Positions 2,682-23,425 of a stretch of 23,425 nucleotides of DNA are shown here, piece after piece; position 1 is the first letter of the stretch, and the number at the start of each line of letters is the position of its first letter. A program made the position numbers and the translations under genes. Below the pieces are notes generated by a model. That model saw nothing but the letters and a program-made list of their open reading frames with translations. It was not told the origin of the DNA and made no database searches. The stretch spans positions 51,511 through 74,935 of the forward strand of contig NW_003133344.1 of assembly GCF_000003605.2 (NCBI RefSeq), in the 5' to 3' direction. Source of the DNA: Saccoglossus kowalevskii (lineage: Eukaryota > Hemichordata > Enteropneusta > Harrimaniidae).

Positions 2682-2689
2682 AGTGTATC

Positions 2690-5080: not shown

Positions 5081-5169
5081 ATGGCGTACGAGTCTTCACC
5101 ACGTGGCCGGTCTTTGTTGTATTACGAAACTTGCAGAGCGACGTTCCTTTGTCTGGATATTGCGTACAG
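5081..5169 (+). CDS. candidate first coding exon, unknown protein
   Basis: An ATG at 5081 opens a frame of 29 codons plus two bases, beginning MAYESSPRGRSLLYYETCRA, that runs into an almost ideal 5' splice site (CAG|GTAAGG, intron from 5170). The stretch has more CpG than its surroundings and the base after the ATG is G. The peptide is not low-complexity. I do not recognise the protein and could not find a matching second exon downstream. Another frame (5103-5285) stays open across the same bases and beyond the splice site, so an unspliced reading is possible but reads less naturally. Partial: only one exon is proposed. Confidence 0.35.
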
Positions 5170-5870
5170 GTAAGGACGAATTTCGCGGATCACTGAAACG
5201 ACCTGAAACAAGCTCTAAATTCAAGAAAGGGAAACAAGAGGAAAATAAACAACCACACACGTCGACGGTAAACCAAAAAAAGTGACCAAAACCCTCAGCT
5301 TTTTTACGCAAAGCATTGTGGATTCAAAAACGCCATCAACGGCCAAAACCACATTTAATCAGACACAGTGGAGGGCGCTATTGAATTGAATTTCTAAATC
5401 AAAATACATTTGAATCTGTTTGTAATATTTTATATTTAACTTGTGCCATACATAACAGCAGTCTACAACAAATCTTTGCTCTTTGATTGATGTAATTATC
5501 TCACCGAAATGGTCGGTGCAATTTGTACTGATAGAATAAATAGTAAATATAAGTTAGAACTGTGACTATATTGTCAAACTGTCAAAATCGAATGTATACC
5601 ATTTACAATCTGGAGCTTTGATACAGATACAGTAATGGGATAACACATCATGGGTGTCAGTCATGGGTGAATGACGTTTTATTGTGTTGAAGATACCATC
5701 TTCATCCTTATTTTCCCTACTTCGTCATTTAGTGAACTAGTGATTCACCTAATATTCACCTGTGGTATTATAGAGGATTTGTCCAAACCTTTAGTCTATT
5801 GTATCTCAAGTCTGAATGACTACTATTACATTATTTTACATAATTATTACAAAGTGTAATTGATAATAAT
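5170..5870. other. no further gene seen
   Basis: If the exon ending at 5169 is real, this is its first intron. The frame at 5671-5859 is hydrophobic and A+T-biased with no known domain. Near 5360 there is a short gtggagggcgctattg stretch without a detectable partner. Confidence 0.4.
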
Positions 5871-5882
5871 TACACCATTAGG

Positions 5883-6010
5883 CCACGTTGTCTATATCAA
5901 AATATTAATTTAAACAGCCACATTCTACCATATTCACCCATGTAGATAAAGGCACATTCGAACATGTTATCTATATCAAACTATTCCAACCACCACATTC
6001 TTTTTATATT
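5883..6010 (+). repeat. diverged direct repeat, two copies of about 50 bp
   Basis: Copies at about 5883-5934 and 5962-6010 share tctatatcaaa, tatt, ccacattct and a final tatt in the same order and spacing, with scattered differences. They look like an old local tandem duplication. No function is suggested. Confidence 0.5.
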
Positions 6011-6012
6011 AG

Positions 6013-6270
6013 TCAAGGAGAACCTGGGTGCTCCCACCCTCCCAGACAGCGTTTTTGCATCACAACTTTAGCCTGAACGCGTTTAGCATATTTCTCATCA
6101 AGATTCTTGAACAAATTGTTCAGTATGACTGAACGCCATGGAAGCGGGTTAACGATGAGTTTCTTCTGGTCTTCATTATCATTCTCACTGCCAGACACTT
6201 CACTAGACATATACCCCACTTTCATCGCACTGGCATATAAGCTCCTTATCCCCTTCAGGTATTGACCTAC
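6013..6270 (-). pseudogene. exon of an unclassified transposon-associated protein
   Basis: Reading leftward from about 6270, the frame gives QYLKGIRSLYASA then MKVGYMSSEVSGSE, an acidic stretch, LIVNPLPWRSVILNNLF and LDEKYAKR, and stops at 6013. The order 'Y-S-S-E acidic stretch, PLPWRS, then LD and a basic tail' matches a protein type I recall from repeated, transposon-like genes in invertebrate genomes. I cannot attach a class name. The ATG codes for an internal Met in that pattern, so the exon may begin further upstream. Only a fragment is present and no partner domain lies next to it. It may be an orphaned piece of a larger element. Confidence 0.5.
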
Positions 6271-6274
6271 TTCT

Positions 6275-7455
6275 GTTTAATTCTGTGACACGCTTGTTTA
6301 GTTTCAGTCGAAACAAGAATAAAAAGAATTGGGTTAGGTTCTAAAACTGAAGGAAAATGCATCAATTAAAAATAACATATTTTTCTATTGTGAACCTTGC
6401 AACTAAATTTGTTTCACTGCTAAAGACAAAACAACACAATGCCTACAAATATGCTTTACATATGAAACAAAACTACATCTGAACATTATGTGATACTCAT
6501 TTTACTAAATCATAACACATGCTCATAAACAGAAAAAGACTATTAAAGCATTGACTTCCAGATTATTGGTGCTCTTGAAATCAACTAGGTGTGTGTTGAT
6601 GTCTGTTATGGCTTTGCAGAAGAAATTAAACCATTAAATATGGCCTAAAATACACAAAAAACCTAAATATTGACACGCGTGAACAAATCTGTTGGACAGC
6701 CATAAGCTACTTGCAACCCAGTCTGGCACCAATTTGAAATAGTCCGGGGAATTTTGTTTTAACGAAATAAAGGTGCTTAGAGCGACCACCGTTGTCTTTA
6801 ATCAGCTTCGAAAATTACGCCAGCTGACACTAAGTCATTCTTCAGTGCAACAGAATATCTGTTCGTTTAGCTCGGAAACTGTACAAAACGGCCCTTATTA
6901 GGGTCACCGCATCCTCCAGAAAAATAAACCGTGTTTTAACGAGTGTAAAAGTTTGATTTAGCTGTGGGTCCGGTCCGTTGCTCATTTTGTGTCTGCTATT
7001 AGTCTTTGTGGTGTTTTTTAGTTGGTGTCATCGCATTTGTTATTTTCAGACATTAGGATTTTTATCGACACAGAAGAGCTATGCCCCCTATAAACAAATG
7101 TGCGTCGTCAAGACAACATCTACCGTCACCTATTTATATTACGTCCAGTGGACGGTTAGGCGTTATGTTTGCTACAATGTATTTGTTTATCATAATTGTC
7201 TACTCAACTAACCAAACATACAAAGCCTATCGCCGACACTGGGACACGTTTCGATCTGACTAATTTCACGCAATTGTGATGTTTGTTGTACCTTTTCCTC
7301 AAATACTTTATTATCAAAAAAATTTTGCGGAACACATTCACATGACCTCTGTCGTCGGCATCTTGTTACAGAATCTATGCATGCCATAGTTACTTTGTTT
7401 AGTTTTTTTCTTGTATCATGGTATCATGATATAAAACAAATCATATGCAACTTAC
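6275..7455. other. no gene identified
   Basis: Two overlapping plus-strand frames at 6978-7263 (77 and 60 codons) have no known domain. The minus strand should hold the 3' part of the Mutator-like transposase read from 7456-7898, but I could not find its next conserved block. A moderately CpG-containing stretch lies near 6770-7260. Confidence 0.4.
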
Positions 7456-7898
7456 CTTTTTTTCTTTTCAACTAAACTTCGCAGCTGTGTACCCATCCTT
7501 TTCTGTACGTGTCCCACAGTCTTCTTTTTGTACTATGTAATCATCACCATAGATATACTTAACAGAATTTTACGCAGAGCTGTCCCCGTCACCAATGAAT
7601 GATGTATAGCTAACAATTGAAAAAAAAAAGAATTACTATTTCAAAATCCTCAACAATAGAAAATACTACACTCTTAATTGTGGCAAATAATAAATTCATT
7701 GTTCAACTCACCGGAAAGTGTGCGTTTCCAGAGATCGGCTAAATAATGAAATAGTCCCTTCTACTTCCATACTTTTCGATGAGCCTTCAGGGTCATGATT
7801 CTCAAACCATTCATAGTATTCTTAATCTTTTCCTTTATCTTCCCATTTATCACATTCTTTGCACTAAATGCATAAATGTGTACTGTCCAGTATTTTTC
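7456..7898 (-). pseudogene. Mutator-like transposase domain, two exons
   Basis: Two exons of a transposase-like protein with the Mutator-like domain typified by GSSxxMExxG and GDGDS motifs. Exon A spans 7898 down to 7712, bounded by acceptor ttcattacag and donor GTGAGT. In one frame it reads CKECDKWEDKGK, a TAA, EYYEWFENHDPEGSSKSMEV then GTISLFSRSLETHTFR. Exon B spans 7609 down to 7456, bounded by a long pyrimidine tract ending in ttgttag and donor GTAAGTT. It reads YTSFIGDGDSSA, a stop, then YGDDYIVQKEDC, and after a frameshift GHVQKRMGTQLRSLVEKK. Joining A to B gives the expected RYTSFIGDGDS run, which supports the intron. Stops at two places and one frameshift make it non-functional. Later blocks of the domain were not found. 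The 84-codon frame at 7967-8221 on the same strand could be an upstream exon but shows no known motif. Confidence 0.72.
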
Positions 7899-7966
7899 CT
7901 GTAATGAATTAACACATTATGAAAGAACAAACAATAAGTGACAGTTTAACACCTGGTATACACAAA

Positions 7967-8221
7967 TCACCCAAAATTCACAGGATGGCTCGCATGTGAA
8001 GTTTCCATGTCGTTCACACATTCATACCATGAATAATACCTCAGACAACTGTCGGAGATAATACACACTTCCAACACCCTATGATTATAACAAAAGATAG
8101 AACAAGGCAGAAAAAAATCTACACAGCGACTCAAATCGGCCTCCACATATACACCATTCACGCAATGGGTAACCCTGCCAGTTTTCAGTGGAATGAATGA
8201 CGAAAAATGACCATTTATCAT
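7967..8221 (-). CDS. open frame upstream of Mutator-like exons, unknown
   Basis: An 84-codon frame, rich in Cys (CVDFFLPCSIFCYN) and with no membrane helix I trust. It sits on the same strand, about 70 bases upstream of the Mutator-like exon A. It may be a 5' exon of that element or a chance frame. I see no motif that decides. Confidence 0.2.
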   Translation of the reverse strand: MINGHFSSFIPLKTGRVTHCVNGVYVEADLSRCVDFFLPCSIFCYNHRVLEVCIISDSCLRYYSWYECVNDMETSHASHPVNFG

Positions 8222-8390
8222 TTGCAGTGATTACAATTTCACATACTATTCACACTGATTTGAATGTGTATTCTATTCTATCCATATAAATAAAATAACC
8301 TCAGACCGGATTTATAACAATAACTATAAAATGCGCGACTGTGAAGCCGTACAAGAAAAATCAATATTAAGACCAAAATGGATATAATTA

Positions 8391-8844
8391 GGGACGACGT
8401 CAAAAGATCGATGTCGGATAAAAAAAACTTATTTCCTTTAGTTTGGGGGTGGGGGGTGTTAACCTCAAAAAGTTTCCATCCTACAAAAAAGATTTTATTT
8501 TTTTAATGAAGTCAAAAAAATCTTGGAGTATTTGTAGTTCGTTTTTATTCTATCCAATCATGGACAGAAATAACCGAAAAGGGAAAAAAATACAGAAAAA
8601 TGGTTTGGTTCGAGTGTACATCTGTGCGTCAAATGAGGTGCATTTGTAAAATCTTTTTACACTCACCCGACAACCAACGTCTATGCAATACTACTGTCCG
8701 ATTATCAATTTGTATTTAATGGTAATTGTAGTCTGACGCCATGACCAATATTTATCAATTAAATTTCAGTGGGGGGGGGGGGGGTAGGAAAAAAACTAAA
8801 GGAATCAAGTTTTTTATCCGACATCGCTCTTTTGACGTCGTTCC
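8391..8844. mobile_element. PIF/Harbinger-type MITE, 454 bp, TTA target duplication
   Basis: The arms at 8391-8444 and 8793-8844 are inverted copies about 52-54 bases long with few mismatches. The left arm starts GGGACGACGTCAAAAGATCG and the right arm reads GGAACGACGTCAAAAGAGCG from its outer end. TTA stands directly outside both ends (8388-8390 and 8845-8847), giving a 3-bp target duplication. A TTA/TAA duplication with a G-rich terminus is characteristic of PIF/Harbinger elements. The interior has no transposase. It holds a G-run (8772-8784) and a 68-codon chance frame. It is non-autonomous and relatively well preserved compared with the transposase fossils here. Confidence 0.88.
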
Positions 8845-8847
8845 TTA

Positions 8848-9300
8848 ATGCTTGCCAGTATCAACAACGACGCCATTTTTTGCAGAGAAACGACGGTTAC
8901 TCCAGCCTTCCGTCCCCAGAAACTGCCACGTTTTAACAGTTTTCATCTTCATTCTCAATTTTCACCCATTTTTAATTTCATTTGTCGGAGCTCTGACGCC
9001 GCCGGTGGATCGGTGCCGGTAAACCCATGTACGCGGCAAATTTATCATCCCACGTCGGCCTTTGCCGATCGCTCTTCCTGCGATTACCATTTTCTTGTTA
9101 ACTTGAAACTGTTTTCCTTGTTTTTCGGAAGACAGAAAACTGCTCTCGGCTGAGGAAAAATAACACTCTTAATTTGAGCATTTAAACTGATAGTGAGATC
9201 CCCAACCTAGCCGTGAGTTTCTTCCAATGTCAAATGTCCGTCGCAACAACTTGCGCTCGCCAAAAAAGTTCGCTATTTATAATGTTAACATCGAACAGTC
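8848..9300. other. CpG-containing stretch with ambiguous open frames
   Basis: Both strands have open frames here: 101 codons on plus from 8848, and on minus a 42-codon frame around 8960-9090 plus an ATG in a good context (aaaaaATGGCGTCG) near 8872 that runs into the Harbinger MITE. CpG is more frequent than in the flanks. It could be a promoter or first-exon region on either strand. I cannot choose a gene model. Confidence 0.3.
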
Positions 9301-9642
9301 TCAGCGACCCATCTGTGTCAGCCATTTCATCATCGTCACTGTGTGACGATAGTTTTCTTTCAGATGCACTTCTTGGCACTTCTTCTGGTTCTTCACTGTC
9401 GGAGCATTTTTTGTACCTCCATGGTCAGAGCTACATGTTGATAAACTTTGTATCGTCACATCGTTGCAGTCTGAACTATCGGATTCATACCACGATTGGT
9501 GGTTTTTTTTAGACGAAGTTTTGCCTCTTCGGACATTGGAGTCGCATTCTTCATTTTTGGTCCCTTCCGTCTCTTCATCTCTAATAAATAACTTAGGAGC
9601 GCTAATTCTTGGATGTGTCGCAAACGGTGTGCTAATACACAA
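9301..9642 (-). CDS. candidate exon, acidic and Ser-rich, unknown
   Basis: An open frame of 113 codons that starts at a TTG, not an ATG, so it is more likely an exon than a complete gene. A possible acceptor (gtgtattag) lies at its upstream edge. The product is hydrophilic, with basic RRGKTSSKKN followed by a Ser/Asp run YESDSSDCNDV, and ends MKWLTQMGR. Composition fits a disordered protein segment. The opposite strand is also open for 99 codons over 9213-9512, which weakens the case. It lies 85 bases downstream of the membrane-protein frame at 9727-10191 on the same strand, so the two may be exons of one gene. No family was recognised. Confidence 0.3.
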   Translation of the reverse strand: MCISTPFATHPRISAPKLFIRDEETEGTKNEECDSNVRRGKTSSKKNHQSWYESDSSDCNDVTIQSLSTCSSDHGGTKNAPTVKNQKKCQEVHLKENYRHTVTMMKWLTQMGR

Positions 9643-9726
9643 TGATCACAGAGGCAGGGCGTGCGCGGGCTGTTTCCGTTGCTAGTAGGTAGGCCTACTT
9701 ATGCAAATTAGATCAATATACATTGT

Positions 9727-10191
9727 TTACGCGCAAAGACCATTATCCAGAAGACAAAATGAGCGGTCTGCTGTTACTTTTTTTAAAAAAGGATTTTTTT
9801 TAGTGTATTGGTTACGATTTTTAATGGGAAACACATTCATTGCCTGCAGGTAGTCAAATGCCACCAAACTATATAATAAAACAAAAATGTATAAAATAGT
9901 GGCCAGCAAGTCCACTAAAAATCCTCTAGTACTAGTATATAAAATTCGGAACAAATCTTTCGTATAGGCCTTCACAACGGTTAAAATAACCTGGTACAGC
10001 AAAAATATATGTAAAAACAACTCGAGAATACGACAATAAATGCGACAACGATAACGCAGACGATTTGTACTGACACGTATGGCTGGCAACGTACAACTTC
10101 CGGGTTTACCTCTCCATGCATCCCGTGATGCATTGCGATATCCAACACGACCGTTAATACTGTCGTTCGCTATGCCTTGACTTGTCATCAA
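9727..10191 (-). CDS. 154-codon frame, predicted two-pass membrane protein, unknown
   Basis: The longest simple frame starting at ATG in the window, starting MMTSQGIANDSINGRVGYRN at 10191 and ending at 9727. Residues 1-50 are polar and basic. Two hydrophobic stretches follow, near residues 55-73 (ILELFLHIFLLYQVILTVV) and 91-112 (FLVDLLATILYIFVLLYSLV), separated by a short KAYTKDLFRILYTSTRG loop. The tail is basic. A 154-codon frame is unusual in DNA this A+T-rich, which argues weakly for real coding. However, the tail is A-rich and the frame may actually end at an internal splice donor. No family was recognised. The upstream flank at 10200-10520 is richer in CpG and could be its promoter. Confidence 0.38.
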   Translation of the reverse strand: MMTSQGIANDSINGRVGYRNASRDAWRGKPGSCTLPAIRVSTNRLRYRCRIYCRILELFLHIFLLYQVILTVVKAYTKDLFRILYTSTRGFLVDLLATILYIFVLLYSLVAFDYLQAMNVFPIKNRNQYTKKNPFLKKVTADRSFCLLDNGLCA

Positions 10192-10689
10192 AAATGGTGT
10201 TGATTTAAATTATCGTCGGCTGGTTAAAAAGAGTTCATGCAAACCATTAATTTAACAAATTTGGAGAACATGTTTTCTGCCAGGTGTATTTTGTTGAATG
10301 TAAACTTTGGTAAAAACGGTTCAGCTTTATCATCATGCATTTCCACTTTTCCGACATAATTCGTTGTTTCTGTTCCTGACTGGTGGTGTTTTGTGATCCG
10401 CGTTCACTGTTTAATTTACGATAGGAAATCGGTGTTGCTATACACTTGACCTTTTCTATCGGAAATTCCGTTTCCGTTTTGGTTAATCTGTCGCGTCTAA
10501 TCTTCGTATCTCCTATTTGATGGCATAAACCAATTTAGCAGTACCTCTGAGGTTGATATGAATGTTCCGAAATGTTCTGTAGAATATGTAGTGTTACCTC
10601 TAATTATAGGGTATTAAAATTAGATTTCATCTATCTTTATTTAAAATGTTATTCGACTTGTAATTTTCATTTCCTTTAAAAAAAATGAT

Positions 10690-11660
10690 AACACTGCCAA
10701 CGTAACTGGTCATGGAGTTACAGGTGAATTGATGATGGAGACTGATGCCATCACTACAACATACAAAACAGAGGAGGGTTGAGAAAGGTAACATATTATA
10801 TTATATTATATTATAAAAAAATAAAATAACACATTTTTAAAATTATTAAAATTAATAAATGTATGGATATGTGTTGGTGAATTTGTTGTACCTGATTTAT
10901 TCTAATTATTAATTTTTCTTTTTCAGTGGTTTGCCTGTCTCAGTTCACAATATCTCATGTCAAGAAAAAAGGTCCAAGCTTTAATTGGTGACAATGCAAA
11001 GAAATTATTAAACAGTCAAGTACTCTTCTTAATGAAAGTATTAGCAAATAACTAAAACCTGCTTTGACATTAATGAGCACATCCACTGAAGATTCAGCAA
11101 GTTTTCGGAGGCAGTCTTCCCACGAATCGGCATCCAGAACATAGTATTTTAATTCTTTATGCATGTCCGTTCACCAACTTAGATTAAGCAGTTTATGTGA
11201 TGAGATTGTGAAATCATTTCTATCTGAAGTTGGCATTGTCATGCAAGAAATACTGATGTCATTTGTAGTGCCTTATCTTCACAAAAAATTGTCAAAGTTA
11301 TTATTGCAGAAAGGTGTGATAATATTACTCGTCCATCTCTGCATGATGTGGAACACGTTTTAAGATATGTGACTGGCTTCATTCCCCAGCAGACTTCCAA
11401 ATAATCAGTTTGCTTAATCATGTTAAAGTCGTGGAAAGCGGGTTTTAGTGATACAACTCGTGGTATTTCATTTCTGAATTATACTATATCTTGGGTCAAA
11501 TCTGTGGACAGGAGTAGGCTTTTCAATGTCGATGATGAAGTGTTTGTGTTTTTCAGACGTATAAAACATGTCACGAAGAGCTATTTGCATATCGGCAAAG
11601 CACGTCAAAATTCGCAGGAAACGGATCACTTACAGAGGTCATCTTCAGTGGTTAGTTGCT
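10690..11660 (+). pseudogene. unclassified transposon-like gene, at least two exons
   Basis: A first block near 10690-10790 (NVTGHGVTGELMMETDAITT) ends at a donor-like GAAAG|GTAACA. A second exon starts after a strong acceptor (tttttctttttcag, ending 10926) with WFACLSSQYLMSRKKVQALI then GDNAKKLL. Across frameshifts follow CDEIVKSFLSEVG (about 11198), DNITRPSLHDVEHVLRYVTG then FIPQQ (about 11321-11395), and FLNYTISWVKSVDRSRLFNV then DDEVFVFF (about 11478-11565). The pattern 'YV-GFIP ... YT-WV--V-RG-LF-V-D-VF' recalls a protein type repeated in cnidarian and invertebrate genomes. I cannot name its superfamily. It carries several frame changes and stops and is not functional. Confidence 0.5.
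10793..10830 (+). repeat. (TATTA)n-like simple repeat
   Basis: A run of tatta units followed by an A-rich tract, inside the proposed intron of the unclassified element. It is microsatellite sequence with no further role visible. Confidence 0.8.
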
Positions 11661-11744
11661 GTTATATTTTAACATCGTCTTTATTCTCGTGGATACAAGG
11701 TTTAGGGCATTTGCTAGTTATGTATATATATATGTATATATATA

Positions 11745-11952
11745 CTGTAAAGGGGGTAATTATTCACTGGGTTTTAATTTAGCTTATTTCGCTGACTGGA
11801 AAAATGCGCTAAATTAAAACACAGTGAATATGTAAAATTTAGCATAGAACACATTATCTAAATGACGAAACCGTGGATTTAAAACCTACTGAATATGCCT
11901 GAAATGGTAAATCAGTGAAATTTAAACCCAGTGAAAATTAGTCATTTTACAG
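11745..11952. mobile_element. 208-bp MITE, TA-flanked
   Basis: The ends are inverted: CTGTAAA from 11745 and TTTACAG up to 11952, with arms of about 37 bases sharing CACTGGGTTT. TA stands directly outside each end (11743-11744 and 11953-11954), consistent with the TA target duplication of Tc1/mariner-type elements. A second palindrome is nested in the left half: ttcactgggttttaatttagc faces gctaaattaaaacacagtgaa between about 11761 and 11830. The flanks are (TA)n microsatellites, so the TA duplication alone is weak evidence. No coding capacity. Confidence 0.75.
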
Positions 11953-12231
11953 TATATATATATATATGTAGAAAAGATGAGAAAGAAAAGATGATCACAA
12001 ACAAAAGTTGTCAAAAAGGATGAGAGCCTTAAAAATACAATTGTGCACATCAAAATTAAGACAACATACATGTACTCTTATTACAAATATCAAAATTGTA
12101 AATTTGTTTTCCCCCAACTCCAAGCCCAAACTATAACCCGACACCTCTTTCTTCGCCCGAACTCAACACCTCACCACCTAATCAAACATCTCCCCCACAA
12201 GTAACTGCCCAACGTAGTCCAACACCAGACC

Positions 12232-12550
12232 TATGAGTGGCATTCAATAAGTAATGCCCCTGACCCACTTCCAGTTGTCTGATCTAGATGAAATTTTGCA
12301 TGTTAATGATTTACATCTCTATGGGTTATGTTGCGAAAACCAGCTCTGAACTAATTGTGGTTTCGTTTCTGATTTACAGGTGTTTGAACAGAGTCAGGTG
12401 TGAAATGGAGCCAGTTGGGTGTCACGCAGTGATCCGGTTTTTGCATTCGAAGGGACACACCAAAGAAGACGTTTGATGAATTGAAAGAAACGTGTGGTGA
12501 TGATGCCCCATCATGACCTTGTAAAACGCTGGCATCGTGAATTCAAACAT
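12232..12550 (+). pseudogene. mariner element 5' remnant with transposase helix-turn-helix
   Basis: The left end at a TA (12232) reads TGAGTGGCATTCAATAAGTA, the style of a mariner terminal repeat. From ATG 12405 the frame gives MEPVGCHAVIRFLHSKGHTK then EDV. A one-base shift gives DELKETCGDDAPS, and a second shift gives HDLVKRWHREFKH, ending about 12550. This is the N-terminal paired-like helix-turn-helix of a mariner transposase, which binds the terminal repeats. The catalytic DD(D/E) domain and the right end are missing. Two frameshifts and the 3' truncation make it dead. Confidence 0.8.
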
Positions 12551-12744
12551 GTGTAACAGACTTATATTTTAAACTGTTGAGGGTAGTGATGATACAATCA
12601 GGATATTTATTCGTGGAGACATCAGATACACTGATAATACAGTGATGTGTAAACTTGGTTTCCAGGCGATGGCTTTACAGCCACGCCTAGAGACAGACCT
12701 CCCGTATAACCTCCGCTATAACCTCTTTCTCATCAGTCCCCCTA

Positions 12745-12885
12745 TTTATAAGTGAAACCACGTGATATCGTGACGTCACTACGACGCCGAGCACAAGTCA
12801 ACGTGATTGGTTAGAACTTACTAACATGCCAAATAAGGAGTGCTAGACAGTCATGGTGACGTTTGACACTGCGTGTATAAAAGTG
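12745..12885 (+). promoter_or_regulatory. cluster of promoter-like motifs
   Basis: Within 140 bases lie an E-box CACGTG (12759-12764), a full CRE palindrome TGACGTCA (12771-12778), an inverted CCAAT box ATTGG (12806-12810) and a TATAAAAG (12876-12883), in a sensible order for a plus-strand promoter. No convincing coding exon follows within a kilobase, so it may drive a noncoding transcript, belong to a lost mobile element, or be chance. Confidence 0.25.
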
Positions 12886-12889
12886 TTAA

Positions 12890-15069
12890 TATGGTTTAGG
12901 CTTTAAACAATACATTAGATATTACATATAGGTGTTGGAATGTGAACATTAAAGTAATAAGCTTGGGAAAGTTAACACGTATTGACATAGACAATTGAAT
13001 GCAATTGTCATGTCATACGTGTATGCGGGTACCACATCAGATTGGTGACACATGGCCGGAAGTCTGTACAAATGTTAAATCCTGTGATCAAATGTAATTT
13101 TGTATTTTGGAGGTATTTTTGTTTGTCCCCCCCCAAAAAAAGTATTCAAAACTATTAAGCACCAAAAACAATTCAAACGAATAAACATCAAGTGCGAAAC
13201 AATATGAAATTAAATAATGTTCAAAAAAATAATTTTTCAAAAATTTTTCAAGTATATAAAAAATATCAAGTTCAATTGCTCAAAATGGTAAATAGTGAAT
13301 AAGAGTGTTGAGTTTTTTTTAAATACAATTTTATAAACACTGAAATGCAAACTACAATATATTAAATGAGCAACAACATTTGGAATAATGTTTATTGATA
13401 CTCTTTTAATGATTCTCTGCATGAGTATATACTCAAAGTATACAAAATAAAAAAATATATTAATTTATTTTTAGAAATGGTAAATATTGTTCAGGGAATG
13501 TAATTTTGTATTTTAGGAAACACTCACTTTTATGAACAGGTAGGTTTGAAGTTATTTATAAATCTATCAATTTGGCGACAGACATTGTATCTGTGAAATA
13601 GTAGATCATCTTGATTCGTAGTGGATGAAATGTGGAGCACTCAACCTATCAGTTAATGCTTCTTAGTTGTTGACTTGTGTTATGTGCTATTTGGATATCA
13701 AAGTGACGCAAAAGTTCTGCAGTTACTCCACCAAACAGTCGCACACATTGGTCTCATTTTCCGTTTCAATACCGAGTGAAATGACAGTTCCTGGTTTATT
13801 GTTGGGTTTTCTATTACGTTTAAAAAGAATACACCTGTTGGGTATAAAAGCAAGGTTTACATAGGTTAGATGAGGTAAGTGAAACTTGTATCGCCCTGAT
13901 TTTCAATGACAACAGAGCTAACTAGATTCGAATAGCATTCAACAAACAATAACAAAAAAGTACTGCACAAACTATACAATTGCATCTGAATGAGATTTGT
14001 TTTAAATCAATAATTAATAAACAATAATGGTATATTTTAAAACTATTTTCTACTTATCATTAGACATGTTTATGCTACCATTACATGTAGCTTTATCAAC
14101 ACAACGGCACTCTTCGAATGTTTTCTAGCCCAATTATCTGCCCTGGAGTTCAATGACAATAATCATCTGAACCAGCTGACAGGTTGTCTACATCATTGGC
14201 ATCAATCTCTTGTTTATTTTTAACATAGAGGAAATAAATGTATGCACAAACTAAACTAGAAATAAATAGAATTGCTTTGACATGGTGAATGCTAAAATAG
14301 TTTTTTTTTAATTATTCATAATGTTCAAGACCCGTAGCCAATAACATTTCATTGATATGATTCAAGATTGAAAATTAACAAATTTGTATACACAATTCAT
14401 CTGTCATTTAGAAAGCTCCGCTGTTGCATGTGTTTATTTACCTAATTGGATTGTCGAAATATAATTTCTTTTTACCCATTGTTTTATCAAAGTAAGGAAA
14501 TGAACAAATCTGAGAGATTCTGAGCTTACCCACACACACTACATAATCAAAATGATTGCACTAGCTGTTTTGAGATTTTAAGATTACAGTTTAAGAAACA
14601 GTGTCTATTCTAGTTCACATTGAGATCATTATATGTGATGTTCTATGTTAAAATAAAACATTGGGTTATGGTGATGTACCTGGGGGGGGGGGTAATTTTG
14701 TTTAGATTTTGTGACAGGTATTTGAAATCTTTATTCTAGGTTATTGCGAGATCTGAGAACTTTATTGTACCGAATTCTCTTGGAAATTATTCCATTCAAA
14801 ATAACGCTCATGGCTGGTGGGCACTTATTTGAGGTTAAAAACTAGTTTTGGGGAATTTGTGATTTTTATTGAAAAATCCACTTAGAAGAACTTTCAACAC
14901 CAGCAGTTGGACCACCCAAGACGAAAGAAACCACTGCAGAAGTTAATCTAAAATTGTATACATTTTTTTCTTGTTGAATTAAAAAGTAAACCGCCTAAAA
15001 TGTCATTACAATGTCACCCAGTGTCATGTTTAATTAACCTAGTACGCCAAATACAACAATTGTTGATTA
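12890..15069. other. A+T-rich stretch without a recognised gene
   Basis: Frames at 13237-13422 and 13667-13864 show no domain. Short G-runs (near 14682) and C-runs (near 13126) are present. On the minus strand around 14150-14220 a short acidic frame (EIDANDVDNLSAGSDDY) could be an exon but has no supporting splice pair I trust. One strong hairpin is listed separately. Confidence 0.4.
12975..13022. repeat. 48-nt near-perfect hairpin
   Basis: The arm at 12975-12997 (acacgtattgacatagac then aattg) pairs with 13002-13022 (caattgtcatgtcatacg then tgt), with a 4-base loop aatg and two single-base bulges. It could be the core of a decayed palindromic element or a transcribed stem-loop. Confidence 0.6.
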
Positions 15070-15462
15070 TTACTCAGTACTGATTATAATAACGTACAAA
15101 AAATAAATTCGTTGAAATGTAAATAAAATCCAACTTAGTTTCATCATAATGATGATACCTGTTGCATATTTTAAACATTCTGTGCTGCTGTAGGATATCT
15201 TTTGGCTTGGACAAATTGCACGATTTTTTTGAACCAAAAAATTAGTTGTTTTCAAAAGTTTCTCAAGGAGGTCGAGCATATGCTGTTTATTTATCCATAT
15301 GTACAGTAGTGATGCTGCAGTGTTGTCAGCAACTACAGCACATCTGTAATCTTCATCATGTTGTGATTTCAGTGAATTGGAGAAGTACATCAATTGAACC
15401 TGCAGCTTGTCCATGTAATTTCTTTTTGGTGGTTTTTCCAGGTATTCTTGAAGAGTAATCAT
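15070..15462 (-). CDS. 130-codon open frame after a strong splice acceptor, unknown
   Basis: On the minus strand a pyrimidine-rich acceptor (ttgtttctcttttttag) ends just before the ATG at 15462. The frame begins MITLQEYLEKPPKRNYMDKL and continues with CAVVADNTAASLLYIWINKQ. A donor-like ACAG|GTATC near 15160 would end the exon before the A+T-biased tail. It lies downstream of the ZSWIM/MULE pseudogene on the same strand and may be a 3' exon of that element or of a host gene into which it inserted. I recognise no domain. The opposite strand is also open over 15246-15458. Confidence 0.35.
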   Translation of the reverse strand: MITLQEYLEKPPKRNYMDKLQVQLMYFSNSLKSQHDEDYRCAVVADNTAASLLYIWINKQHMLDLLEKLLKTTNFLVQKNRAICPSQKISYSSTECLKYATGIIIMMKLSWILFTFQRIYFLYVIIISTE

Positions 15463-15654
15463 CTAAAAAAGAGAAACAATAACTGAATAAGCATTGCAAT
15501 GTACTGACTGCAAGGACGTGAAATCAGATATAGGTAAAACTTCTAAAAAAAATATGATTACTGATATACAAGAGTACTGACGAACTATCAATAATACGCG
15601 GAATAACTAATTCCTTGATTGAACAGGGACATGATGTCAAATGGTTTTGTAGTA

Positions 15655-17795
15655 CTACGGTCTACCTCGCCGTGACTTAACATCGGCAACAAGCAACTGC
15701 TCTCTAATGGCCAAAATAGAAATACATGTGTCTGCATTATTATCAGATGCAGAACTACCAGAAATTACATGACTGCTTGAAGCAACAGGACTGTCACAAA
15801 TAACAGGATTGCTAGATGCTACAGGACTGTCACAAATAACTGGATTGTTAGATGCTACAGGACTGTCACAAATAACAGGATTGCTAGATGCTACAGGACT
15901 GTCAAAAATAACAGGATTGTTAGATGCTACAGCATTAGTTCTCCAAGAATTGTAAATACCTTTCATTGTGTCTAGTTTCTAAAAAAATTCTTGCTGCCCA
16001 CATGTTGCTAAAAATGATGCAATATCTTTCAAAGTATCATTCGCTAATTTGTACTTTTGCCTTTCAGTCAGGGTAGTAGTTGTATTGCTCTCTCTTCTGA
16101 TAAGAGTGCTTGATGAGCCTGATATCTCTGTATTTAAAACCTCCTTCATCCATCTCCTGAGAATAAGACTAGATTCAAACATAGTAACGCCCATATCCCT
16201 TCGAAAAGCAAAGATATGACATGGCAATAAATACATGCTATGAAAAGTACAATTTCATTGTAACATTTCAATACTTACCTTGTACTCTTTTTCTCCATTC
16301 TCTATAACATACTATTCAGTACTAGGCTCTTCATTTAGTGTAGCTTCATACTTATTTTTCTCGAATTTGTCTTTGTTTCATGATCAGATCTACAGCAGGA
16401 GCAGTACAAACATTTGTAACCAAACACTGAATATTACTTACCCTTAAGCTTCTTGTATCCAGTCTTGTCTTTAAGTTCTTAAATGTACTGTAGTTGGTGT
16501 TTAGTGAATATTCATTGGAAAATCTGACAAGTCGCTCAATTGCTTCACTTAAGTGACAATTTATTCCCAGGTATGCCTTTATTTTCTGGTTATGAGATTC
16601 AATCCTATTATTTGTGTTATTACCAAAGGTTGGTAACTTCCGCCTGAAATACAGAGCCCACATTTCTCTACACTCATTCCAATTATTAGAAAAATAGTCA
16701 ATAAACGACTGAGGAGATACTGACACTACATTTTCATACTTACTCGTATAGTCCTCCTCTGACTGAATACACCAAAGCATGGACGGCTTTCATAACTGTT
16801 GTCTTCAATTCCTTCCCAATTTCTAAATCAACCACCTATTTTTTCAAATACTTGATGACATGGAATGTGCATAGTGGGATGGTAACATCTGGCATGACTT
16901 CTCTCACAGCAGCAATTTCAATAAAGTTCTTGTCCACATTACAACTCTAACTTTACTGAGATCATTGTGTTCTCCAATATGATGAAATAATTTGATAAGA
17001 TTCTTGTGATTCATTCTTCACAAATGCATAACCAATAGAGCGCCCCTTACCTTGACCATCTTGTATGAGTATTGGGTACAGTGGATAGCCTTCAATATTT
17101 ACCTTATATATTGCATCAGCAAAGAGGATTTCTGGATACTCGTTATATAATCTGTTCATGTCACTTGTTTGGAAAAATACGAAGTCAAGTTAATTTTTTG
17201 GTGACATCTCAATAACAGTTGTTATATTTGGATCAAGACGTTGTAGTTCAGTTAATTTATCAGCAACCTTTTGACCTACATTCTGATTTGCGCTTATCCA
17301 TCACCCCTTTCATATTATGTATATCTTTTGAAATTACCTGTTTGCCTGTCTTCCTTGCAACAACACACTTAATATTTTACTTCAACATCCAAATCAAGTA
17401 GTTGTTCAACTTCTGCAGTCTCAGTTGTGTTCAATTTTCTGTTATCTGGATACTACCTGTATTTTTCTGTTGAAGTCGCATGATTATGTTCTGTACACAA
17501 AACTTTATAGCAAAAATTAACTTGAGCTTTACACTGCAGTCAGATACACATTAACTCTGTAGTGGTTGCCCATTCTTACCTCTAATCTGTGGTTCACCAT
17601 GATGCTTGCAAACAAACGTGATGTTATTATATGGATAATTGGAATGTACATTACCTATATTGCGATGGCTTCTTGAGGTTCTCATCACCATTGCTTGTAA
17701 CTTGATCTGGATATGTTGGAAACGTCTCTCCATGGAATATTTCAACACCACCACCTACTTGATGTTGCTTGTTATTTAGTGGTTTAGCAATGTGC
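15655..17795 (-). pseudogene. ZSWIM/MULE-type transposase with SWIM zinc finger
   Basis: Nearly full-length degraded protein related to ZSWIM1/3 and MULE transposases. In order on the minus strand: FAR1-like N-terminal domain (GETFPTYPD near 17730, YPYNNITFVCKHHGEP near 17600, EHNHATSTEKY near 17485); YPDNRKLNTTETAEVEQLL; VVARKTGKQVISKDIHNMKG; NQNVGQKVADKLTELQRLD; then a TAA within SPKN*LDFVFFQTSDM. The RNase-H-fold core follows with PEILFADAIYKVN (first Asp codon near 17117), DKNFIEIAAVREVMPDVTIP then LCTFHVIKYLK (second Asp 16934-16932), and TNNRIESHNQKIKAY (Glu codon 16600-16598), giving an apparent D-D-E set. The SWIM finger region reads (stop)NCTFHSMYLLPCHIFAFRR, and the end carries a 36-bp coding repeat and an RRGRP AT-hook-like tail. 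Several stops and frame changes show it is dead. The start of this part is continuous with an SGNH-like domain upstream. Confidence 0.85.
15768..15940 (-). repeat. 36-bp coding tandem repeat, about 4.5 copies
   Basis: Copies begin at about 15785, 15821, 15857, 15893 and 15929, spaced exactly 36 bases apart. On the minus strand each encodes twelve residues of the form NPVICDSPVASS. The repeat keeps the reading frame and is nearly identical between copies, so it is younger than the decay around it or expanded while the frame was still translated. It lies in the C-terminal region of the ZSWIM/MULE protein, after the SWIM finger. Confidence 0.92.
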
Positions 17796-18445
17796 GGTTT
17801 AGTGTGTGTTTTAGTAGAAGAGGGTGGTTTAAGAGGAAAGTGAGTGTGACACAACGTAGATCTATCACACCAAACTAGTTCATTCACTACCTTTAAAGCA
17901 ACATCACAGAAGATGGATGCCATCCAAGCTGCACCACTGTAGCTTAGATGTAATCCATCTCTGGCATGAAGCTTTTCCCCACTACAAAAGCTAAATGTAA
18001 AGACAGGACCATTACCATCTAAACTCTGAAGAAGTATATTAAGAGGAATGACATAATCATAGTTAACATTATCAAGGAAACTATTTGTTAGGTGTCTAAA
18101 TTCACTGTTAGTCCTATATAAGACAGATGAAATTACAATATGCCTGCCTGGTGACACTACTCACCTCACTGCAAAAATGCTTTACCTTGTCAGCAGCACT
18201 GCTTGGACTTTTCACCATAATTGTTGATCCCAGCATGAAAAACAATGATGTCAAACTGAGGCACAATATCAGAAATCTTCTCGAAAATGTCTTCAACACG
18301 CTTGCCTGGAAAGGACAAGACAACGGGTTCGGCTCCATGGACCATAGAAACACGACTCAGTCGGCGACTCTATGGTCAAGTAGTACCTACAATCAGGGTG
18401 GATAAAAAAGACATACTTGGAAGTAGTTTGAGGTTATCGCTATGA
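17796..18445 (-). pseudogene. SGNH-hydrolase-like domain upstream of the transposase
   Basis: A splice acceptor (tctttctctttctag, ending 18446) precedes a frame reading LLPSMSFLSTLIVGTT, two stops, SMVHGAEPVVLSFPGKRVED, ISDIVPQFDIIVFHAGINN (near 18220-18245), then after frameshifts KSPSSAADKVKHFCSEV and HIVISSVLYRTNSEF. It continues VIPLNILLQSLDGNGPVFTF and ends RDGLHLSYSGAAWMASIF (about 17915-17970). The order matches SGNH hydrolases: block I (normally GDS, here GTT), block III G-x-N, and block V D-x-x-H. The family hydrolyses esters and similar bonds; here the nucleophile Ser is not visible and stops interrupt the frame, so no activity is expected. The last part of the domain is in the same open frame (17651-18157) as the first residues of the ZSWIM N-terminal domain. 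Confidence 0.68.
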
Positions 18446-18617
18446 CTAGAAAGAGAAAGATGTATACATCAACGATCAATCGTCTGTAGAGAGTGAACTC
18501 AGTGTAGAGCTTGGTTCTTAAACGAGTTATGATGGATCAGTAAGTATTTAACACCTTTTAAACGATACATAGCGGCATACCTTGATTTACTGTTCTCCGA
18601 TTGACACCTCGCGAACA

Positions 18618-18737
18618 ATGAACAACGGCATCTCCTTAATCTTATTACTAGATTGTCCTCAACCAGATCCAGAAAAACAGCCTGGAGCTAGTTATTTCAG
18701 CATCCAATATGAATGCACATTACTTGGACGAACCTGA
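18618..18737 (+). CDS. 39-residue open frame with a 2A-like motif, uncertain
   Basis: An ATG in the context gaacaATGAAC opens MNNGISLILLLDCPQPDPEK followed by QPGASYFSIQYEC and ends at TGA 18737. The run LILLLD...DPEKQPGA loosely resembles the hydrophobic-then-D-x-E-x-N-P-G-P ribosome-skipping (2A-like) motif found at the N-terminus of some invertebrate non-LTR retrotransposon proteins, with three key positions changed. No retrotransposon protein follows. It may be a chance frame or a relic. Confidence 0.22.
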   Translation: MNNGISLILLLDCPQPDPEKQPGASYFSIQYECTLLGRT

Positions 18738-19007
18738 CACGCCACTTCAACTAAACAGGTCGTGTCAAAGTTCAACTTTAAATGGAGGCTGGAACCCGAC
18801 CGCATGTATCACGCGTACTCATAAGCCCGATTTCCATGCAGTGTCGTATGGGTGTCGTACATTTCTATCGTCAGATGTTTCTAATTTGAGGAACTTCCGT
18901 ATGCCGACCCATGTCTGAGGTTGAATACATAGTGCACTCATTGCAGCTCCGTGATGCGACAACAAACTTAATAGGTTGAAATAGGCGCTCTGATTAATAA
19001 TGAAATA

Positions 19008-19490
19008 TTTCAAAGTTTCTGGTGTAACTGCATATATTCACGTATTATGTCATATGGAAAATGTGACTGGAAATGTACTATACTAGTTGCAGGTTTTTTC
19101 TTCTTCAAAATACTACAATGTGATTGCATCATTAAGGGCTGATATATGATAACTGTAAATGCACGGGCAAATTTCAAAGTCACTGGTGTAATTGCATCGA
19201 TTCACGACGTAGTAGGTGGAAATGTGAAAACTAAAAGTATATTGTATACGATTAATTACAGGATTGTATTCAAAATACCACAATGATTACATGATCGATT
19301 AACAGTAGTACATAATAGAGATACATATGAAAACTGTAAGTGCGCTGTGTGTTCACGCATATTTCAAAGTGTGGTGTTAACTGCATATATTCACGACATG
19401 TGTAATAGGGAAAATGTGACTGGAAGTTTACAATACTAGTTGCAGGATTTTTTTTTTCACAAAATACTACAATGTTATTTCATCAGTTAA
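19008..19490 (+). repeat. diverged satellite-like tandem repeat, about 2.7 copies
   Basis: Units start at 19008, 19172 and 19362, each with tttcaaag then tggtgtaa(c/t)tgcat, ttcacg, ggaaatgtga, a tract like gttgcaggatt, and aaaatac(t/c)acaatg. The first two units are about 164 and 190 bases long and differ by indels; the third is partial. An old tandem array with no coding capacity. Confidence 0.8.
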
Positions 19491-20239
19491 TGGGGAAGGG
19501 AGGGGTAGACAAATGAACGAATAGTATGGGAGTAGTGACGATCGCTGTTCGAATTTGCCGATACCATGTGCCAAAAATGCGCGTATTCTGATAAATTCAA
19601 CAACCAATGAACTTAATCACTGACATGACAAATTTATATAAATTCAACAATGTACTTACGTTTTCGATTGTGCTGTAAGGCGAAAATGACTTCAGACAAA
19701 GGATTGCACGAGGATGTGGCGAAATACAATGCAACGGGAGAGACAACTGGTACAACTAACAAACTCAGTGGCGTGAAGATAGAAATATACTAGTTGGGAC
19801 ATGTCTTCATTATTTTAACCAATTGCTGAAAAGCAACTTATATTTCTATCCAATCGTAGATTGCTGTCACAAACAACTGAGAAATCATTACGCGCAGGAA
19901 GTACAACATGAACATGAGAGATTAGGAGGAAGAATCGAACAGCTGATAAAATGAAAAGAGGCTTGGACGATTGTTAGAAGATAAGGAATGATGACACTGG
20001 CCGACTTGTGTGAACATTTGTGGAAGGATTTATGAGAAAACCGTACATGGAGAAACAGTCCCAGGGATTCAGTTTCATTTTTTGATTAACCGTTCAAAGT
20101 CAATAACATGGATGAATGACTGCATCAGTACTATTGTACATCTGAAATATTGCCAGTATACGGGGAGAGCAATGCTGGAAAACTATACAAATTTTGTTAT
20201 ATTCACATAATGTTGAACTAGATATCCGTATCCGGTATT
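19491..20239. other. no recognised gene
   Basis: A 35-residue frame at 19686-19793 (MTSDKGLHEDVAKYNATGET start, ATG context gaaaATGa) reads like coding sequence, but nothing supports a gene. A 66-codon frame at 20010-20210 has no known domain. The stretch may be a decayed mobile element; I see no diagnostic block. Confidence 0.4.
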
Positions 20240-20380
20240 CTAGATTTTATGGTTATCTATAGCAATAGCAACGTAAACTGGTTTGTGGTCATTAAAATAA
20301 GAATCTAGTATATCAACAGTATATAAATGACTTGGAAAACTTGTATAAATATTATTGATGAGATTTTTATGGTTTTATTG
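20240..20380 (-). pseudogene. LINE endonuclease fragment, copy A
   Basis: Minus-strand frame HKNLINNIYTSFPSHLYTVD then ILDSYFNDHKPVYVAIAID. This is the C-terminal end of an APE-type endonuclease (EEP fold) of a non-LTR retrotransposon, where (S/N)DHKP holds the catalytic His. It is homologous to copy B 730 bases away. No reverse transcriptase was found next to it. It is a fragment only. Confidence 0.65.
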
Positions 20381-20967
20381 TTTGTATGAAGAGTATAAAT
20401 AGCTGTACATTTGGTTAGCTTTGATTAGCAGTAGACTACTCGTGATCTATTGTTTACACACATAACTTATATTATCTTCTGATTTGTATTATAATTTTGT
20501 TTCCACAACTATAGAAATATTAGAGATTATCACAATCCCTCCTATACATATTTTATTTATACATTTATACAAGACAAGTCATCTAAGACAAACAAACAAT
20601 AACAAGCTTAATTGCATTAAGAACTCTGAATAATCATGGGAACCATTCCTATAATTACTTCGGCATTTGTGAAAACTTAATCACAATTTCATGAGATTTC
20701 GCAAGAAGAAAAGTATTTGTTGGACAATCACTTGTCACTAATAGTTCAGGTCATTAAGGGTTTAGGGACAGATCTAAAATGTGCTCATGTCAGATACTGG
20801 TATAATAAACAGAATCAGATTACAGCCAAATGTATGCTTAAAATTGAACGATCATCTTTTTAAAAACCCTTGAAATATATATTAACCACAAAACATTTTA
20901 TTGTGCATAACATTTAAATGACTTTGGACAATTTCTATTGTCAATGGTAGATCAATAACTGTCAATT

Positions 20968-21110
20968 AGATTAGATGTTTGTCTATAGCAATGTAAACTG
21001 GTTTATGGTCACTAAAATAAGATTTTAGCACATGTGCATTATATATATGTCTTGGAACATTCGTATACATATGATCGATGAGACTTTTATAGTCTGTATT
21101 AGTATTATTA
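20968..21110 (-). pseudogene. LINE endonuclease fragment, copy B
   Basis: Minus-strand frame NTDYKSLIDHMYTNVPRHIY then NAHVLKSYFSDHKPVYIAID. LIDHMYTN...SDHKP is the typical C-terminal signature of the APE-type endonuclease that nicks target DNA for LINE insertion. Upstream (about 21110-21160) the frame continues TNRLKNIERIKVNNN. It is better preserved than copy A. The catalytic core N-terminal to this piece and the reverse transcriptase are not visible. Confidence 0.7.
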
Positions 21111-21782
21111 TTGACTTTTATCCTTTCTATGTTTTTTAATCGATTTGTTTACGTACTCGAATTTTTCATGGCGTTAAAACCATGCCATAAATGTATACTT
21201 TATGTAAATATGTAAATTTTAAATTTAAAAATGACTTGCTTCGCAATTCGCAAAAAGAATTCTTGTATCTATTAGAACATCCTAAGATTACATTTCTGTC
21301 AATCACGTGATGATGACAGTCTGTTTCAACATACTTCCAAAATTATGCACATGTGTAAAATGAATGAGGAACGGTGTCTAAAAAAGCAATAATTACATAT
21401 ATTTATGCCTATAATTTTCCATTAGTGTAACCAGTAGTTAGTGGGGTAAATATTATGTAAAATCTTCCATTGGAACTCAGAAATGGCGTACAGTAGACTT
21501 GGTTATTGAAACTTCGGGTAAGTACGTTATTAGTTGTGAATAGACAGGGTTCGGAAAATTAGTCACCGACAACATTTTGTGACGTTCAGATCTTGATTGA
21601 GATGCCAGTTTAAAGTGGTCAATTGTGTGTAGCTGTGCGTTTCAAACGTTTTAATAATACTTAAGGTGTTTTGCTTCCTGTCCTATAACTTGTATGCAAA
21701 TAGCTGTGTTCATGATGTTCATAAATATCAATCAAGTTCAACCATTGGCCTGTCATTAATTTAGTATTCACAGTAACTTTAG

Positions 21783-21927
21783 CCATTTCACACAGGTTTT
21801 TCATACCTTTTAAAAAGACAGGAAGAAGGTGATGCAGATGAAGTAACACTGACCCATGATTCCAGTGATATTCAAGACGATCCAGACACAAGTGACAGTC
21901 CTGTCTCAAATGATTCAACTGAAGAAG
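21783..21927 (+). CDS. candidate acidic exon, unknown
   Basis: Between acceptor-like sites (aactttag ending 21782, or ttcacacag ending 21795) and a donor GAAG|GTATAG, one frame reads LLKRQEEGDADEVTLTHDSS then DIQDDPDTSDSPVSNDSTEE. It is strongly acidic and Ser/Thr-rich, as in disordered linkers of transposases and nuclear proteins. The opposite strand is also open for 85 codons. No family was recognised. Confidence 0.3.
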
Positions 21928-22331
21928 GTATAGTTTTCAAACTATTTGCTTAAGATAATTTCTACAGTGACTTGTATTTTTCATCATCATTCGGTTAAAG
22001 TTTTTTTATACATGTCAGACACGAGCAATTGAAAAGTTGTAAATTTGCAAAATAATACCTGTGAATAGGATGCAGCACATTTAAAATTCTAGCTGCTGTG
22101 TTTTTGTTTTATTCACCATACCTAAGCAATTTCATTATCTCAGCCTTTATTTAATGACTTTTTTCTTCTAAGCTCAACAGGAAATTTTTTTTTGTTAAAA
22201 TAATATCATTCATATATTCTATTTTTTTTAATTTATTTGCTGGTATTTTTTTACGTTTTGGTAATCGCGAAAGCCCACAACTACCTATACAAGGCGCGTT
22301 CAAGTACCTCTCCGCTGACGGGATTAGTCAA

Positions 22332-22336
22332 CCAAT
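22332..22336 (+). promoter_or_regulatory. CCAAT box upstream of RecQ-like first exon
   Basis: CCAAT in the context caaccaatcacag, 74 bases before the ATG at 22410, within a CpG-richer stretch (22262-22450). The spacing suits a TATA-less promoter. Confidence 0.4.
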
Positions 22337-22409
22337 CACAGAGCGCCTTACGAAAACACGATGATGCACTTTGCGCGTGCACATGAAGTGATCACCAAGA
22401 AAAATTAAA

Positions 22410-22466
22410 ATGGCGGCGTTTACCGGCCAATCGAGCGAGAAATTTGAACAAATAATTGACCATGAG
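22410..22466 (+). CDS. candidate first exon of RecQ-like gene
   Basis: ATG in a strong context (ttaaaATGGCGG) opens MAAFTGQSSEKFEQIIDHE, 19 codons, ending in phase 0 at a good donor (GAG|GTGAGT). It follows a CpG-containing, CCAAT-bearing flank. The exon at 22946 starts in the same phase, so they can be joined. The peptide itself carries no known domain. The link to the helicase exon is inferred from phase and proximity (479-base intron). The exon could instead belong to a different gene. Confidence 0.5.
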
Positions 22467-22747
22467 GTGAGTATTTGTTGATTATGACATGTTTCCTATT
22501 ATGATTGAACTATGTTGGGTATTTGTGGCCGTTTAGTCAAGTAACAAACAATATTTATATACGCGAAAATGCTTACTCGTGTGGATATAAATGAAAACAC
22601 CAGTGTTACGCACACGTTTCTTGGATAATAACAAATGACCTAAAGTAGGATCGGCATAGTCAGCGACTACCACTCATGTTAGTCACATTAACAAGGATAC
22701 AAGGAGGTTGTGTTTTAATATTCTCGCCTCTTGTCTCATTAATGAAA

Positions 22748-22795
22748 GACCAAGTCACAGTCCCTCTATCCTCTATAGAGGGACTGTGACCAAGT
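22748..22795. repeat. perfect 16-bp hairpin between 8-bp direct repeats
   Basis: gtcacagtccctctat (22754-22769) and atagagggactgtgac (22775-22790) are exact inverted copies around a 5-base loop cctct. gaccaagt stands on both sides (22748-22755 and 22788-22795). The insert could be a minimal remnant of a transposon, with two terminal repeats joined and a target duplication. It sits in the intron of the RecQ-like gene. Confidence 0.75.
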
Positions 22796-22945
22796 AAATG
22801 TTTTATTTTATAAATGGTAATTTACTTGCACAACAGTACTGTCACTGGAAATTATTTAATTTGACTGGTTCATCTAATTTCGAAATCTATACTTCCCGTT
22901 ATTATTTCAATATCTTGGTAATTGATTAATTGGTAATTCTTCCAG

Positions 22946-23135
22946 ATAGACAGTTTGACTTTGTTGGGATTTAGTGCAAAAATGGCCAGAGATGTCCAGA
23001 TTGATAGAAAGTTGCCAACCTATATATATGGTACCCCAGGGGAACAAAGCACACCTTCATAGACATGCTACATCAACATCATGGTGATAAGATTGTATTA
23101 TTGGTAGTTGATGAAGTTCATACTATTCAAAAGTG
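22946..23135 (+). pseudogene. RecQ-like helicase exon with DExH box, one frameshift
   Basis: The exon lies between acceptor ggtaattcttccag (ending 22945) and donor GTAAGTAT (from 23136). It reads IDSLTLLGFSAKMARDVQID then RKLPTYIYGTPGE. After a frame change near 23040 it reads FIDMLHQHHGDKIVLLVVDE then VHTIQKW, with the Trp codon split by the intron. VVDEVHTIQKW is motif II (DExH) of RecQ-family superfamily-2 helicases, and YIYGTP matches the YxTPE-like block before it. The Walker A motif is missing, so either another exon lies between or the gene is decayed. RecQ-like genes of this type are often repeated in invertebrate genomes. The gene would continue beyond the right edge. Confidence 0.62.
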
Positions 23136-23425
23136 GTAAGTATATTGCTTGTATGCTTGCTTGTAATATTTGTATGCATGTTATTTTCATAATTGACACT
23201 AGAGGCATTTTGAGTCGATCTGTAATTCTAAACCACTCACTGCATTATGGGAAAGAACTTCCATTGTATATATAATCTGGAAACTGACTAAATTATGTAA
23301 ATTTTATGAAATCTTTCAACAATATTAGGATTTGTATCACTATACAATGTTTTTTCATTCTCTGTCAGATTTTTTGAGAAACAAATGAAAAAACAAAAAC
23401 ATTACCATATACATGTACCACATTT
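23136..23425 (+). other. intron of the RecQ-like gene, runs off the edge
   Basis: No coding block was seen after the donor at 23136. A+T-rich, presumed intron. Confidence 0.4.

Follow-up and report, generated by a model that had tools for sequence, protein, structure and literature searches.

A decayed ZSWIM1/3-type Mutator-like transposase gene preceded by an SGNH-esterase-like domain in the hemichordate Saccoglossus kowalevskii

A stretch of 23,425 nucleotides from the hemichordate Saccoglossus kowalevskii (positions 51511-74935 of contig C2501, in a genome of 572 Mb and 4,830 contigs; hereafter the window) is AT-rich and carries on its minus strand, from about 18.47 to 15.66 kb, fragmented remains that resemble a single long coding region. 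With moderate confidence, we read them as the dead remnant of an animal transposon gene of the ZSWIM1/3 type, which belongs to the Mutator-like elements (MULEs), and whose ancestor was probably one protein made of an SGNH esterase and a transposase. That protein would have had roughly 940 residues (estimated from 18470-15658) and would have comprised, in order, an N-terminal SGNH esterase, a flexible linker of 46 residues, a zinc-binding DNA-recognition region, a transposase of the RNase H fold (D-D-E), a SWIM motif, and a repetitive tail.

The SGNH blocks follow one another on one strand as FPGKRVEDI, HAGINN, and RDGLHLS, namely, blocks II, III, and V (block V by eye). Blocks II and III lie upstream of the 169-codon open reading frame (ORF) that holds block V, and in a different frame from it. 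For block I, which should contain the catalytic serine, no GDS is readable in the window copy in a six-frame reading. When 248 window pieces, each of at least 40 codons, were compared with PDB entry 4c1b, the piece bearing blocks II and III aligned as it stands with a 95-residue stretch at a score of 54, and the runner-up scored 36. The accession statement of PMC3905857 identifies 4c1b as the ORF1p esterase of ZfL2-1, a zebrafish long interspersed nuclear element (LINE). With the SGNH pieces joined by X the score is 64, a value reached by none of 5,000 query shuffles and none of 5,000 target shuffles, which take as given that 4c1b was chosen as the best PDB match. The aligned stretch spans blocks II and III, with block V outside it. 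In profile and database searches, 4c1b is the sole PDB match of the joined domain up to E 10 (E 0.1), and PF13472 the sole Pfam match of the joined SGNH-linker query up to E 5 (E 0.016; 16.2 bits, below the curated cut-off of 32.9). The single piece with blocks II and III matches no Pfam family, and NCBIfam, a prokaryote library, gives no SGNH match and just one irrelevant weak match (E 0.19). Schneider et al. (2013; PMC3905857) describe H191 and S228 of ZfL2-1 as residues whose conservation is confined to transposon-encoded esterases. H and S also stand at the corresponding window positions in the 4c1b alignment, with a numbering that is deduced: the 4c1b chain is taken to be offset by 131 because its H60-S97 spacing equals the H191-S228 spacing. 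As judged from these alignments, an SGNH-like domain is present above chance, and PF13472 and 4c1b both point to the family that the initial annotation had named in advance.

A ZSWIM1-3/MULE transposase lies downstream. Its RNase H-like region, with stops read as X, matches PF21056 (ZSWIM1-3_RNaseH-like) at E 5.7e-20 and PF10551 (MULE) at E 2.7e-12, both above cut-off. The helical part that follows matches DUF5575_C just above cut-off (E 3.6e-5) and ZSWIM1-3_helical below cut-off (E 0.0032). The D, D, and E of LFADAIY, NVDKNF, and NNRIESHNQ, read by eye, would be those of the D-D-E motif. Between GETFPTYPD and the RNase H region there are C, C, and HNH residues that by eye resemble zinc ligands. 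Farther downstream, the SWIM-like region has no Pfam match; its SWIM-like stretch resembles that of a relative on contig C7, described below (tblastn E 0.017). The repetitive tail is in frame with the SWIM-like piece, one TAG separating the two. A table of a MULE survey (PMC6446971) records minisatellites for Rehavkus and Phantom, either within the transposase ORF or behind it. The transposase is frameshifted and dead.

The two domains occupy the same strand in a consistent order and are only about 138 nt apart, which leaves little space for a promoter or a terminal repeat. The 169-codon frame, the longest of 10 stop-to-stop ORFs of at least 100 codons in the window, contains both RDGLHLSYSGAAWMA from the SGNH side and GETFPTYPD from the transposase side, and no stop falls between them. 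Whether the intervening linker looks coding was judged by a position-specific base model; its training set was 642 codons from the other pieces of the element, the linker itself being excluded. In the frame shared by both domains the linker scores 0.12 bits per codon, and each of the five remaining frames scores below zero. Among 20,000 random stretches of the flanks, 6.4% are stop-free, 0.5% reach the linker score, and 0.195% do both. In a leave-one-out test, the called frame was the best of three for 10 of 10 pieces (two just above zero and one slightly below), all of which had been picked as stop-free, a bias in their favour. These results suggest that the SGNH and transposase domains were likely translated as one ancestral protein, short of proving the fusion; translation as a single protein and movement by cut-and-paste are what we infer from the remains. 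The initial annotation had claimed that block V and GETFPTYPD share one stop-free frame, which is borne out, and that the ancestor was one protein, which is the best-supported reading in view of strand, order, and the open, coding-like linker, with no second fused copy found in this genome to back it. The features are collected in Table 1.

Table 1. Pieces of the decayed element, in the order in which they would be translated
Feature	Position in window	Strand	Basis
Probable start of SGNH domain, LIVG... at the expected place of block I; damaged, stops after	18379..18468	-	Six-frame reading; block I by eye
SGNH-like blocks II-III (FPGKRVEDI 18286-18312; HAGINN 18220-18237), one stop-free piece	18193..18369	-	Best of 248 against PDB 4c1b
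SGNH segment from block III to block V, third frame, SPSSAADKVKHFCSEV	18162..18209	-	Part of X-joined query
ORF of 169 codons: C-terminal part of SGNH domain with block V (17918-17962, by eye), linker, GETFPTYPD (17705-17731)	17654..18160	-	
Interdomain linker, 46 codons, rich in P/S/T/K/H, no stop, no in-frame ATG	17732..17869	-	Codon periodicity, ATG check
Putative N-terminal zinc-binding region: ITFVCKHHG 17596-17622, CKAQV 17519-17533, EHNH 17480-17491; broken frames	17263..17731	-	By eye, piece periodicity
ZSWIM1-3 RNase H-like / MULE domain, D in LFADAIY 17106-17126, D in NVDKNF 16923-16940	16839..17213	-	Pfam; D/D by eye
C-terminal helical part, E in NNRIESHNQ 16586-16612	16355..16789	-	DUF5575_C, ZSWIM1-3_helical
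Degenerate SWIM-like zinc motif TFHSMYLLPCH 16216-16248 and C-terminal region	15982..16254	-	By eye; tblastn
C-terminal tail of 12-residue tandem repeats (36-bp minisatellite 15762-15932, 4.8 copies)	15658..15978	-	

Several results weigh against a transposon that encoded one SGNH-transposase protein, including the preselection of 4c1b before shuffling and the PF13472 score below cut-off. Searched on its own, the 169-codon ORF matches nothing in PDB up to E 1 or in Pfam up to E 5. About 3% of the stop-free random stretches match the linker score, which makes for a modest coding signal in the linker taken alone. The initial annotation had GETFPTYPD begin a ZSWIM N-terminal domain, a label based on the sequence pattern and on the C, C, and HNH residues; Pfam does not confirm it, as neither of the two X-joined pieces of the N-region matches any family. 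Terminal inverted repeats (TIRs), one of the checks that the annotation had proposed, were sought between 18150-21500 and 12500-15700, and none stood above the shuffled null: the best pair of arms scores 28.3 bits, and 60 shuffles have a median of 25.4 and a maximum of 35.4. The MULE survey lists some groups as lacking TIRs (PMC6446971). Finally, the searches of the 572-Mb genome yielded a single copy, and a distant relative, considered next, shows no SGNH in the 6.4 kb upstream. An AlphaFold model of the 169-residue ORF only is uninformative (pLDDT 33.5).

Counts from the searches of the same genome are lower bounds, only the best candidates having been scored. A DNA search with 15400-18700 returned, apart from the element itself, one match, which covers 127 query bases of its 3' flank, and the SGNH ORF found only itself up to E 0.01 (two candidates scored). 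A profile search with PF10551 gave 12 loci, the window's included. Around the 11 others, 10-kb stretches (7 of them containing N) show no SGNH block V pattern in their readable parts, and a comparison of 2,283 pieces (30 codons or more) from 14 loci with 4c1b and the window SGNH domain gave only chance-like scores, the best being 41 against 4c1b. With PF21056 there are two loci, the window's and C7:229476-229760; since the latter is missing from the PF10551 list, neither list is exhaustive. The C7 locus is also decayed, is 27-35% identical to the window in the RNase H and helical parts, and has a SWIM-like stretch. No SGNH domain turned up in the 6.4 kb upstream of it, whether by a Pfam scan of the plus frames, by tblastn using the pieces from the window, or by alignment with 4c1b. 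Intact two-domain copies in the same genome, another of the proposed checks, were thus not found. The annotation had also held that relatives that always have one domain and not the other would tell against a fused ancestor, and the distant C7 locus leans slightly that way. At 230933-231210 of C7 (within locus L027) a repetitive C-terminal tail follows the SWIM-like stretch, with repeat units that by eye are unlike those of the window. A MULE-family match (E 1.5e-4) lies at 94617-94901 on the plus strand of C2501 (locus L023), about 20 kb past the end of the window.

The same fused protein could have been a domesticated, non-mobile host gene resembling ZSWIM1/3 that became a pseudogene. ZSWIM1/3 of vertebrates are host genes, and the Pfam domain is named after them; the single copy and the lack of detected TIRs also fit such an origin. 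However, the D, D, and E can still be read by eye, which is expected of an active transposase, and the heavy decay, together with another Mutator-type remnant about 9 kb away, is what a transposon graveyard would look like. We regard a host-gene origin as unlikely. It is slightly less likely that the element had two adjacent ORFs or spliced exons, the SGNH ORF coming first and a separate transposase ORF after it. Separate accessory ORFs of the SGNH/GDSL kind are described in Ngaro-like elements (PMC9210276) and in long terminal repeat (LTR) elements of bdelloids such as Vesta (PMC5408684), and the present copy is too decayed to display an intact joint. Against two ORFs, the frame stays open past block V, and the linker ahead of GETFPTYPD lacks an in-frame ATG and appears to be coding in the same frame.

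Chance neighbours, that is, a LINE ORF1 or host SGNH fragment beside a MULE insertion and accidentally in frame with it, appear improbable. The closest solved relative of the SGNH domain is a LINE ORF1 esterase, and the second transposase remnant indicates that insertions accumulated in the window, but the domains are merely 138 nt or so apart and the joint odds of a linker both open and coding-like are 0.2%. Moreover, Pfam detects no reverse transcriptase family up to E 0.05 in the six frames of 1-15000 and 18900-23425. Between 15000 and 19000 the minus frames hold none up to E 5, the scan of 15001-18899 being confined to that strand. This absence and the lack of any other genome match to the SGNH ORF (E 0.01) count against a LINE remnant, and a LINE ORF1 fragment was rejected as the whole explanation.

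A single SGNH-transposase protein, if such was the ancestor, would differ from the known systems that it resembles. It shares with animal MULEs of the ZSWIM1/3 type (PF21056/PF10551) the RNase H-like domain, the C-terminal helical part, and what look like remains of a SWIM motif, and differs in having an SGNH esterase-like domain ahead of the transposase. The MULE survey tabulates OTU, SET, PMD, and FAR1 as extra domains, and its main text contains none of the words esterase, SGNH, hydrolase, GDSL, and lipase (PMC6446971); hydrolase and esterase are also absent from the accessible text of an arthropod MULE survey (PMC13359780). With ORF1p of ZfL2-1, which belongs to the CR1 clade (PMC3905857), the window shares the FPG-RV block II, block III, and the transposon-specific H and S. 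Unlike in ZfL2-1, the window SGNH domain is joined to a DDE transposase, no endonuclease-reverse transcriptase comes after it, and no N-terminal extension is readable, the comparison covering blocks II and III with block V outside. The texim genes of fish also tie an SGNH hydrolase to a DNA transposon, but texim is described as a separate multi-exon gene with the Helitron coding region alongside it or in its last intron, unfused and not cut-and-paste (PMC4021074). SGNH domains are further reported from CR1 and RTEX LINEs and Penelope-like elements (PMC3905857) and from bdelloid LTR, Athena, and Terminon elements (PMC5408684, PMC6431247). In Ngaro-like DIRS elements (PMC9210276), as in the bdelloid Vesta, Athena, and Terminon (PMC5408684, PMC6431247), SGNH/GDSL is likewise a mobile-element accessory; unlike the window element, these are retroelements that carry it in an ORF of its own. 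No SGNH-MULE fusion was found in the literature searched, which leaves most subscription papers, supplements, and Repbase outside its scope. The pairing of SGNH with other kinds of mobile elements is thus known, and for a MULE a prior description elsewhere is possible.

The function of such a protein can be proposed from its parts. The DDE domain would have carried out cut-and-paste transposition, and the zinc regions would have served DNA recognition. The ZfL2-1 esterase hydrolyses p-nitrophenyl acetate, an activity blocked by the H191/S228 double mutation, and binds acidic phospholipids (PMC3905857). By analogy, the SGNH part may have hydrolysed esters, bound acidic phospholipids, or both, as an accessory activity rather than as DNA chemistry. 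Through such an activity the transposase or its complex might have been brought to membranes, or a host factor or a host ester altered. The domain was probably taken from a pool of transposon-type esterases circulating among animal mobile elements. The window copy, being broken, is not expected to localise to membranes or to act on an ester. We tentatively suggest, as something that could well prove otherwise, that there is an animal cut-and-paste lineage in which the transposase itself bears an SGNH domain of the transposon-esterase type that binds or cleaves lipids, and that this accessory is common to LINEs, Penelope, Ngaro, LTR elements, Helitrons, and DDE elements. Unrelated mobile elements of animals repeatedly carry SGNH esterases, whose role is unsettled. 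If the suggestion is true, the shared domain hints at a common step, such as localisation to membranes or germ granules, irrespective of the mechanism of replication. Explanations in terms of RNA, ribonucleoprotein assembly, or reverse transcription would be insufficient if a transposase that deals with DNA only also bears SGNH, and a general step, localisation or modification of a host factor, would become testable. As a sole and dead copy, the window element is a pointer towards related genomes rather than proof.

Beyond the 3' end of the element, 15270-15527 is 77% identical over 258 aligned columns to positions 1377-1609 of locus L011 on contig C3427. This stretch overlaps an exon-like ORF (MITLQEYLEKPPKRNYMDKLQ..., 15073-15462, minus strand), which by eye has a good-looking 3' splice site before it. 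In the 10 kb around L011, the transposase pieces of the window give merely a weak match of 16 residues (E 0.067). The stretch may be a 3' exon, either of the element or of some repeated gene unrelated to it. Outside the genome, neither viral nor prokaryote collections yielded a relative, three of three IMG/VR scans included. A Holophagaceae record that matched the RNase H piece (locus L001, the one locus kept from 57 stretches) was rejected: its peptide LIQDGQGK is judged to match by chance, the bacterial ORF being unrelated.

In the window as a whole there are no tRNA genes, and no Rfam family reaches its gathering score. The second Mutator-type transposase remnant, about 9 kb from the first and different from it, lies at 7717-7929 on the minus strand and matches PF20700 at E 1.2e-12 with stops as X. 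Two inverted repeats look like small non-autonomous elements: 8390-8425 / 8810-8845 (36 nt, 94%, arms 384 nt apart) and 4267-4294 / 4382-4409 (28 nt, 96%, arms 87 nt apart). Diverged direct repeats occur at 19025-19455 (78 nt, 86%) and 20265-21093 (109 nt, 81%).

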